Shown: in pieces, positions 12,505-15,386 of the stretch
How the letters are laid out: each line of letters opens with the position of its first letter
How positions within the stretch are numbered: the first letter of the stretch is position 1
Source: Nitrospinota bacterium
GTDB lineage: Bacteria; Nitrospinota_A; UBA7883
DNA length: 36,457 nucleotides
Assembly: GCA_029881335.1 (NCBI GenBank)
Contig: JAOUMU010000018.1
Span: 1 to 36,457, forward strand
Reading direction: 5' to 3'
Translations under genes and position numbers: made by a program
Notes under the pieces: generated by a model
Told to the model about the DNA's origin: nothing
Database searches by the model: none
The model's input: the letters and a program-made list of their open reading frames with translations, nothing else

Positions 12505-12533
12505 TTGTTAATCGCGCGGGTAGGGTGTATAAT
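12505..12533 (+). promoter_or_regulatory. Sigma-70 promoter for the OsmC-family gene
   Basis: -35 TTGTTA (12505-12510), 17-bp spacer, perfect -10 TATAAT (12528-12533). Predicted start of transcription is near 12540, leaving a leader of about 75 nt before the ATG at 12616. Confidence 0.75.
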
Positions 12534-12558
12534 CCACTCCGTTAAGTTGATCCATATC

Positions 12559-12570
12559 ATCCCGCGGGAT
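12559..12570. promoter_or_regulatory. Palindrome in the OsmC leader, possible operator
   Basis: ATCCCGCGGGAT is a perfect 12-bp palindrome about 20-30 bases downstream of the predicted transcription start. This position suits a repressor-binding site or a small RNA hairpin. No regulator gene is adjacent, so the binding partner is unknown. Confidence 0.35.
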
Positions 12571-12615
12571 TGGGCGTGGGAAATATGCGCAAAATCTAAA
12601 ACAACAGGAGGATTT

Positions 12616-13154
12616 ATGTCCCAGGAATCTGTGAAAGAGGCATTGCTTGCCACCATCGGCGCGATCAAAGAAAAGCCGGAAGCGGGAAGGGCTGTTTTCC
12701 GTAGCGAGACTAAATGGATCAGTGATGTGAAATGCGAGGCGAACATCCGGGATTTTAACACAATGACCATCGATGAGCCCCCGGAGCTGGGAGGAGGGAA
12801 TGCCGGACCGAATCCTGTAGAGCTTCTGCTGGCGGCGCTGGGAACCTGCCAGGAGATCATGTACGCCGCCTATGCCTCTGTCATGGGCGTGGAACTGACC
12901 TCGCTGAAGGTGGATGTGAAAGGCTATCTAGATTTGCAGGGGCTTTTTTTGGGATGGATGAGAATATCCCCTCCGGCTACAGCAAGATTCAGTACGTTAC
13001 TCACATCGAAAGCCCGGCCGATGCCGAGACTATGAAGCAACTAATCCAGACGGTGGAGAGCCACTGCCCTGTGCTGGATACGCTGGTGCGCGCCATAGAG
13101 GTGACCGGCGAGGTGAGGGTTAACGGAAGCAAACTGGAGATGGTGAAAGCTTAA
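12616..13154 (+). CDS. OsmC-family protein, frameshifted at a T7 run
   Basis: OsmC/Ohr-type proteins reduce organic peroxides with two cysteines. The ATG at 12616 follows AGGAGGATTT. Frame 1 gives residues 1-112 with the first conserved Cys (Cys78 in ALGTC) and reaches VKGYLDLQGLF. It then runs into unrelated sequence and stops at 13035. The rest of the family (MDENIPSGYSKIQYV and the second Cys in SHCPVLDTL) is in the -1 frame, ending at 13154. The switch point is seven T residues (12944-12950), read T TTT TTG in frame. A -1 shift there gives a 179-residue protein with both cysteines. This may be a real mutation, a sequencing error, or ribosomal/transcriptional slippage; family alignment suggests two extra T or one missing T. 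Confidence 0.8.
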
Positions 13155-13306: not shown

Positions 13307-13981
13307 CTATTTCTTACCTTTGCCGCCTCCCAGCACACTGGGATCCACGCCCAAGGCCTTGCATATCTCGCCCCAGCCCATACCGGAGAGGCGCATGTCC
13401 ACGATAGTTGTCATCGAGGCTCCTGAGGCTTCCATGATCGCCTTAATCTTGGCTATCTGCGCGTCATTAAAACCAAGGTCGTGGAGCTGCTGATCTGTAA
13501 GATTGGTATCAGCAGGAGGCGGATCGGTCGGGGCCGGATCGGTCGGGGCCGGATCGGTCGGCGCGGGATCGGTCGGCGCGGGAGCAGGAGCGTAATCGAT
13601 TACCCATGTGGATGGATCCAGGAAAGCGTTGCCGCTTATCGACAGCGCGTCACCCATCAACGCCAGTGCGTAGACCGCAAGCTGGGTCATAAAAGGATCC
13701 TTCAGAGTAACGGTATAGTCGCCTTGTGGAACGTTGGTAAACTGGAACGCCCCTGTCATCATATCCACAGGTGAAGACTGGATCGCAACACCTGAGGCGT
13801 CAACAATCTCCGCGTTGAACTGCAAGACCAACGCCGAATCAGTGACAGATGGCGTGCCTTTCGCTGCTTGCTCCATGTTGCTGGATCCGCAGGCTGCAAG
13901 CATCGAAGCCGCAAACAGCATTACGGCGATGTTTACGCCCATTTTTTTCTCATTGTTTTTCAATTTGTTCTCGCCTCTCAT
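13307..13981 (-). CDS. Lipoprotein with TTR-like domain, PAPTD repeats and GMGWG C-terminal motif
   Basis: A 224-residue predicted lipoprotein. The ATG at 13981 is chosen because GGAAGGAAA precedes it; an ATG 18 bases earlier lacks a site. A basic n-region, a hydrophobic core and lipobox LAAC place the lipidated Cys at 31. Residues about 45-110 resemble a transthyretin- or carboxypeptidase-regulatory-like beta domain (FQFTNVPQGDYTVTLKDP). Four PAPTD repeats and a PPPADT spacer follow. The C-terminal 65 residues are helical, with LTDQQLHDLGFNDAQIAKIKAI, then MRLSGMGWGEICKALGV and a GGGKGKK tail. The motif recurs in the adjacent lipoprotein and, as I recall, in uncharacterised secreted proteins. 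Function unknown. Confidence 0.82.
   Translation of the reverse strand: MRGENKLKNNEKKMGVNIAVMLFAASMLAACGSSNMEQAAKGTPSVTDSALVLQFNAEIVDASGVAIQSSPVDMMTGAFQFTNVPQGDYTVTLKDPFMTQLAVYALALMGDALSISGNAFLDPSTWVIDYAPAPAPTDPAPTDPAPTDPAPTDPPPADTNLTDQQLHDLGFNDAQIAKIKAIMEASGASMTTIVDMRLSGMGWGEICKALGVDPSVLGGGKGKK
13521..13580. repeat. Four tandem 15-bp repeats encoding PAPTD
   Basis: Four head-to-tail copies of a 15-bp unit beginning GGATCGGTCGG. The first two copies are identical to each other (ending GGCC), as are the last two (ending CGCG). They encode the Pro/Thr/Asp linker of the lipoprotein on the minus strand. Copy number may vary between strains by slippage. Confidence 0.85.
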
Positions 13982-14020
13982 TTTTCGATTTCCTTCCAAG
14001 CTTAAATATATGTCTCGTCA

Positions 14021-14049
14021 TTTATCAAATATGGTCCGTTCAATGCCAA
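14021..14049 (-). promoter_or_regulatory. Putative sigma-70 promoter for the first GMGWG lipoprotein
   Basis: Minus strand: -35 TTGGCA (complement of 14044-14049), 17-bp spacer, -10 GATAAA (complement of 14021-14026). It lies 40 bases before the chosen ATG at 13981. The rest of the roughly 310-base gap up to the next terminator shows no gene. Confidence 0.5.
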
Positions 14050-14293
14050 TCACATTCAACATACACTACAGCAATAACGGCGCCAATAAAAACGATGCAG
14101 TAAGCGCATGTATATCAAGCACATACAATGGTGACATGGAAAACGCATTCAGAAGAGTATCTATTAATGTACTTGAGCGTCGGATAATGAATACAGTTGG
14201 ATTTCCAGTATGTTTGGTGGCGAGGGGTCGTCTATGAAGAGGGGATGGCGCATGGTTTAAAGCGCAAGGTAATTGAGGCGGTGGGCAATATCT

Positions 14294-14324
14294 ATAAAAA
14301 AGCCCGGCCATGACAGCCGGGCGA
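14294..14324 (-). terminator. Rho-independent terminator of the second GMGWG lipoprotein gene
   Basis: Minus strand: a perfect 7-bp stem, GCCCGGC (14302-14308) with GCCGGGC (14316-14322), 7-nt loop CATGACA, followed by a T-tract (A run 14296-14301 on the plus strand). It closely matches the terminator at 13249-13282. Confidence 0.85.
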
Positions 14325-14349
14325 TTTGTTGGATCAGTCTAGCTTTATG

Positions 14350-15075
14350 CTACTTATTCCCATGGCCGTTTCCATTGCCGTTGTTGCCTTTGCCGGGATT
14401 ATCCGGTTTGCCATTGCCTTTATCTTTCCTGCCGGCGTTTTTGGCGCTTCTGGTTTTCTTGGGATCCCATCCATCCGGATGACCCATGCCGAGGTGGCCC
14501 GGATGCAGGCCCAGCTCATGAGCGATCTGTCCCCAGCCCATGCCGGAAAGACGCATAGCCTCCACCTCGCTGGCTGGTATACCTGCAAGATCGCCAATTT
14601 TAGCTGCTCTCTCCTGCTGGGTCTCATTCAACGAGGAGTCGCCATCATTTGAATCGAATTCAATTTCCCACGTCGCCTGGTTGTCGTTAAAGGAACCGGT
14701 CAGCTTTGCGTCGTCACCTTCCATTATGCTAACATCAACTTCCGTGATCACCTCGTCGGTGTCCGGATCAACGAATCGCAGGGTGTAGTCTCCTTCCGCC
14801 ACACCGCCGAAAGAGAAATTACCGTTGGAGTCGACATAGGTTTCGGCTACCACATCGCCGTTGATGTCCACCAGTTGCACCAGGACGCCAGTCATTGGCT
14901 CGTCACCTGCGACCAACCAGTTAGCTCGGGCCGCCGATCCGTCATTATAGATGGCGCTGCCGGAAATATTGTTGCCACCTGTTCCGCTACCGCAGGCAGG
15001 CAAAACCATAGCCACCAAGGCCAGCATGGCAAAGCTCAATCCTGCTTTTTTAACATAATTAGTCATAAGTTCCAT
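14350..15075 (-). CDS. Lipoprotein with beta-sandwich domain, GMGWG motif and Gly/Asn/Lys tail
   Basis: A 241-residue predicted lipoprotein. The ATG at 15075 follows GGGAGAGTGGGAA. The signal peptide ends in the lipobox LPAC with Cys28. Residues about 35-150 form a SpaA/TTR-like beta domain (NGNFSFGGVAEGDYTLRFVDPDTDE) and an acidic region. Residues about 150-195 are helical, with SGMGWGQIAHELGLHPGHLG, matching the neighbouring lipoprotein; nine residues, MRLSGMGWG, are identical. The last 40 residues are a low-complexity Lys/Gly/Asn tail, the sort of basic tail that could bind nucleic acid, polysaccharide or peptidoglycan. It is divergent from the pst operon across 376 bases. Whether it is phosphate-regulated is unknown. 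Confidence 0.82.
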   Translation of the reverse strand: MELMTNYVKKAGLSFAMLALVAMVLPACGSGTGGNNISGSAIYNDGSAARANWLVAGDEPMTGVLVQLVDINGDVVAETYVDSNGNFSFGGVAEGDYTLRFVDPDTDEVITEVDVSIMEGDDAKLTGSFNDNQATWEIEFDSNDGDSSLNETQQERAAKIGDLAGIPASEVEAMRLSGMGWGQIAHELGLHPGHLGMGHPDGWDPKKTRSAKNAGRKDKGNGKPDNPGKGNNGNGNGHGNK

Positions 15076-15330: not shown

Positions 15331-15386
15331 TGTAACCAAACCGAAAACCCTCCGTAACATTGTCGTAATAATTGGGGGAGTATACT
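15331..15386 (+). promoter_or_regulatory. Pho box array and -10 element of the pst-pho operon
   Basis: Four 7-bp half-sites at exact 11-bp steps: TGTAACC (15331), CGAAAAC (15342), CGTAACA (15353) and CGTAATA (15364), each separated by 4 bases. The 7-4-7 geometry is that of PhoB boxes, in which direct repeats are bound by tandem PhoB dimers in place of a -35. Ten bases after the last half-site is TATACT (15381-15386), a good -10 at the expected PhoB-dependent distance. The half-site sequence is variant relative to the E. coli CTGTCAT consensus. PhoB itself is encoded by the fifth gene of this operon, so autoregulation is expected. Confidence 0.7.

Follow-up and report, generated by a model that had tools for sequence, protein, structure and literature searches.

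The inputs of many bacterial envelope-stress sensors are unknown. The closest described systems to the locus presented here are the ECF anti-sigma factors with a zf-HC2 domain (Pfam PF13490): in another phylum, such proteins bear as their first extracytoplasmic part a small module, hereafter the GWG module, and are encoded with a sigma gene. The two Nitrospinota proteins analysed here, P1 and P2, carry this module too, but they are lipoproteins with neither zf-HC2, nor the transmembrane anti-sigma layout, nor a sigma gene as neighbour. A second likeness is to the CnaB, SdrD_B and CarboxypepD_reg families: the beta domain of P2 exceeds Pfam cut-offs and has CnaB fold matches, yet in P2 it is small, occurs once in a lipoprotein and is fused to the GWG module.

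The module itself recalls three other families. It shares with HTH_38 and HTH_68 the spacing I..lr..G...IA..LG and a sub-threshold profile similarity, but it falls below every cut-off, is exported, has a near-invariant WG turn and shows no consistent positive charge. There is a weak Foldseek resemblance to UBA-like three-helix bundles (TM-score ~0.5), although the E-values (2-10) are not significant and the eukaryotic ubiquitin context is absent. DUF5666 co-occurs with the module within single proteins at three loci (L025, L045 and L116), but it is a separate domain, absent from P1 and P2.

A tandem pair of lipoproteins in Nitrospinota

Within the window (the whole stretch of 36,457 nucleotides analysed), P2 (241 aa, 14350..15075) and P1 (224 aa, 13307..13981) are arranged in tandem on the minus strand. 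Their likely starts are the ATG codons at 15075 and 13981, each with a Shine-Dalgarno sequence in front, and the MRG start of P1 is kept in relatives. An earlier note on this DNA had proposed adjacent lipoprotein paralogues; both open reading frames were found where it placed them, and they match each other by blastp with an E-value of 6e-18. A sister Nitrospinota MAG (L019) has orthologues of P1 and P2 with their order kept, also divergent from pstC, and P1 has a further orthologue in L023. Values of dN/dS against the sister species were 0.13 for P2 and 0.16 for P1 which, together with the ordered orthologues, establishes at the level of sequence that both are real genes under purifying selection.

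DNA identity across the module is 82-85% between orthologues and 49-53% between paralogues. The duplication hence predates the species split and there is no need to invoke gene conversion between P1 and P2, which we rejected. The intrinsic terminators of P2 (14302..14322, minus strand) and P1 (13254..13282, minus strand) are near-copies of each other, identical at 26/31 bases, as the earlier note had noticed. No other near-exact copy exists in the 3.09 Mb assembly: only these two match the stem sequence with 0-1 mismatch, while the other 10 matches carry 2-3 mismatches (a reversed-pattern control gave 4 such matches). This likeness is consistent with duplication of the gene plus its terminator. 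The profile found no third module gene in this assembly (~92% complete), and two weak matches (L003 and L004) fall within unrelated sequence, so that we discounted them as chance. An OsmC-like gene, named from its sequence, lies at 12505-13154 and is interrupted near a T-run at ~12944, its two parts lying in different frames through either a frameshift or an assembly error.

The two proteins follow the same plan. P2 comprises, in order, a signal peptide with the lipobox LPAC, a beta domain, an acidic linker, the GWG module and a Gly/Asn/Lys tail; P1 comprises the lipobox LAAC, a diverged beta domain, a Pro/Thr/Asp repeat linker, the GWG module and a GGGKGKK tail. Lipoboxes and signal peptides were judged by eye: LAAC is standard and LPAC a looser match, both follow a basic n-region and a hydrophobic stretch, and the lipobox Cys is invariant in 7/7 aligned relatives. 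The beta domain of P2 (14650..14973, minus strand; AlphaFold strands at residues 32-139) is over the Pfam cut-offs for SdrD_B (36.5 vs 29.7 bits) and CarboxypepD_reg (33.4 vs 32.3), and its model matches CnaB-containing surface proteins, pilins and transthyretin in Foldseek (E 2e-5 to 1e-3). That of P1 (13592..13840, minus strand) is on its own sub-threshold for SdrD_B, yet alignable with the P2 family. The P1 linker (13508..13591, minus strand) is a 15-nt tandem repeat (PAPTD) whose length differs by species, being longer in L019 and of a TVPTDPT type in L023. The modules, located by profile matches and in P2 also by AlphaFold, occupy 14482..14634 in P2 and 13322..13474 in P1 (both minus strand). 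The P2 tail (14353..14481, minus strand) is predicted to be disordered (pLDDT <50), and the last 42 residues of the protein are 67% G/K/R/N. The features read beforehand from the letters, namely lipobox, TTR/SpaA-like beta domain, identical MRLSGMGWG motif and Gly/Lys-rich tail, were all recovered in both proteins.

A widespread module outside Pfam and NCBIfam

The module is ~50 residues long, and in P2 it runs through the helices ETQQERAAKIGDLA and ASEVEAMRL, the turn SGMG, and the helices WGQIAHE and PGHL. AlphaFold predicts a confident helical bundle, in agreement with the helical segment claimed earlier: helices span residues 11-24, 28-36, 41-47 and 52-55 (mean pLDDT 82; block means of 92-95 over residues 11-50), with SGMG connecting helices 2 and 3, and in the full-length P2 model these helices reappear between the beta domain and the disordered tail. 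No model in Pfam-A or NCBIfam reached its cut-off across the module in P1, P2 or the sampled relatives, so that it corresponds to no well-characterised domain in these two libraries. Foldseek against the PDB gave no significant match, none falling below E 2, and the weak list consists of designed toroids, UBA domains and helix-turn-helix (HTH) proteins. As a solved relative by sequence we retrieved just a poor CAP-repeat match over 20 residues, which was set aside, and LysM membership was not accepted from a partial 17-residue match in L025 and weak matches in two modules. The titles and abstracts of the open literature, searched by motif string and by DUF5666 and anti-sigma terms, did not yield the module. 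Judging from sequence, we rate it as a probable new, uncatalogued domain of extracytoplasmic sensor/lipoprotein type.

A profile built on the last ~55 residues detected relatives within the genus, the family and the order of the source species, and in genomes of Desulfofustis, Fimbriimonadales, Elusimicrobia and Chloroflexota. The module was present in 19/385 genomes of a sample taken across the domain and weighted to relatives, in 28/54 genomes of the phylum of G184, 29/198 of the phylum of G046, 6/9 of the phylum of G043 and 6/43 of the phylum of G098; plasmids and viral contigs gave no relatives at the sensitivity used. Altogether we collected 94 distinct copies from many phyla, nearly all exported by sequence signals, and conservation is clearly not confined to the two genes at this locus. 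Across these copies the W is conserved at 94%, the next G at 97%, the R at 71% and a nearby I at 82%. The N-terminal parts joined to the module vary widely across phyla, which marks it as a genuine separable unit; two units stand in tandem within one protein in L024, L025, L036 and L140. The earlier note had likened it to a small binding module rather than an enzyme: the helical, separable and non-enzymatic look of the module supports this, while binding itself is something we infer.

By a simple hydropathy rule, 53/56 members start with a signal-peptide-like segment. Tails are net-positive in 42/52 members, and the G/K/R/N fraction of the last 30 residues has a median of 0.52, against 0.23 for the remaining ORFs at those loci. 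The p-value of this comparison is indicative only, since the members are related to one another and the control ORFs were taken as open frames without filtering. The products of loci L067-L083 form a distant branch of the family: they are short and secreted, carry KGKGWG and GIKPGS motifs, and have tails of the KGKGKGKK type. A further tandem arrangement of two module genes occurs at L092:2-1880, the second copy being weak (E 4e-5). A weak match in G369 (L047) is doubtful as a member.

Linkage to ECF sigma factors and a proposed role

In the phylum of G184, an ECF-type sigma ORF lies directly upstream of the module gene, usually overlapping it, in 28/30 module loci and in 28/28 module-bearing genomes. 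To seed the sigma profile we used five sigma genes adjacent to module genes, including one from this phylum, and Pfam confirmed sigma-70 regions 2 and 4 in the ORFs tested. There are 3-10 Sigma70_r2 matches per genome of 1.2-2.8 Mb (18 genomes of this phylum), hence chance adjacency would be expected at ~1-2% per locus; the 28 genomes are related and therefore not independent, and the arrangement is common to six families. The encoded proteins consist of an N-terminal segment, a hydrophobic TM-like helix and the module. We found zf-HC2 over its cut-off in L113 and L121, and Pfam did not find it in L105, L114 and L116; for proteins of the latter kind, "anti-sigma" is a putative label given by layout and operon. 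The sigma-linked TM-module proteins of this small-genome phylum are those of loci L105-L134, and some of them contain DUF5666.

Comparable arrangements are found elsewhere. In Chloroflexota (L025), a sigma gene is followed by a protein with FecR, DUF5666 and two modules, and in the Desulfobacterota a conserved operon of Desulfofustis (L020, 374-4401; L090; L091) encodes a TPR protein, an ECF sigma factor, a TM-TPR protein and a Gly-tailed module protein. A profile of Nitrospinota copies only and one of anti-sigma copies only aligned in hhalign with a probability of 98.9 (E 2.6e-17), in a comparison that was not blind, the anti-sigma copies having been gathered with a broader profile. A point against a sensing role is that, in the phylum of G046, most copies stand alone as secreted proteins and their 1.5 kb flanks contain no sigma gene.

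From gene order and topology, the sigma-linked copies would be sensors, and the module in general would bind something. In the anti-sigma-like membrane proteins, encoded with an ECF sigma factor, the module would sit just outside the membrane, a position from which it most likely senses a ligand or partner of envelope origin. To extend this sensing or binding role to P1 and P2 is a further step, made by analogy. Our preferred reading, held tentatively and somewhat short of even confidence, is that the module serves outside the cytoplasm to sense or to bind a partner, and that P1 and P2 display it on a lipid-anchored beta-domain stalk plus linker. A tandem duplication of genes with their terminators, followed by divergence, would have produced the Nitrospinota pair; both proteins would be exported and lipid-anchored, hold the module at the end of the stalk and linker, and most likely bind an envelope ligand of the same kind from a membrane surface. 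Counting against a sensor reading for P1 and P2, there is neither a sigma ORF in the window around them nor a visible module-bearing anti-sigma partner. The envelope-stress link raised in the earlier note is supported indirectly, by homologous modules in or beside ECF sigma and anti-sigma-like operons of other phyla. A broader proposal, which we consider unlikely, would make the GWG module a cross-phylum sensor of one conserved envelope ligand, wired to ECF factors in some phyla and elsewhere placed on lipoproteins or secreted proteins that carry the ligand or compete for it in envelope-stress sensing.

Alternative readings and the Pho neighbourhood

A serious rival, though on balance a somewhat unlikely one, is that the module is structural or adhesive: bundle and basic Gly/Lys-rich tail would adhere to polyanionic polymers of the envelope or matrix (LPS, polysaccharide, cell wall) without any signalling. 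The CnaB-type stalk is like those of surface adhesins and pilins, basic Gly-rich tails recur across phyla, and many copies are stand-alone secreted proteins, all of which would be in keeping with adhesion. Adhesion leaves unexplained, however, the pairing with an ECF sigma factor in every module-bearing genome of one phylum, and the tail is strongly acidic in L021/L007.

The order of the helices, helix-turn-helix-like, together with the families that dominate the sub-threshold Pfam matches (HTH_68 in 10/21 modules, HTH_38, HTH_SB and Sigma70_r4), could instead point to an exported HTH derivative that binds nucleic acid, e.g. extracellular DNA, with help from the basic tail. Full proteins reached at best 19.8-22.3 bits against HTH_38 and HTH_68 compared to a gathering threshold of 27, and isolated modules gave mostly E-values of 0.001-0.1 (best 1.3e-5, for HTH_38). 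With no curated cut-off reached and no significant match to a solved structure, we did not file the module as an HTH family, and net charge argues against nucleic acid as the ligand (-3 for the P2 module, -1 for that of P1, and 46/94 modules neutral or acidic), so that we regard this reading as improbable.

The placement of P1 and P2 next to a Pho operon had also raised the question of phosphate control. The neighbouring genes are a divergent pstC-pstA-pstB-phoU-phoB-phoR, with the same arrangement in the sister species, and the shared intergenic region contains as its only Pho-box-like element the 11-bp-spaced repeat CGTAACATTGTCGTAA at 15354-15369, which occurs once in the genome, is conserved in L019 and could act as the PhoB box of pst. 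That PhoB controls P1 and P2 together with pst, as lipoproteins of phosphate starvation, is nevertheless very doubtful and Pho control finds no support, because the repeat, at 82 bp before pstC, is ~280 bp away from P2, and pst stands beside module genes only in the source species and L019, other relatives of the same order having serS (L006, assigned from its sequence), ispD (L021) or a proteasome-like gene (L023) in that place.

Returning to the module as an extracytoplasmic sensing or partner-binding domain, its occurrence both in ECF-linked membrane proteins and in free lipoproteins would provide a concrete, cloneable handle on the signal. A new family model would moreover give an annotation to exported proteins across many phyla that at present are labelled simply "hypothetical".
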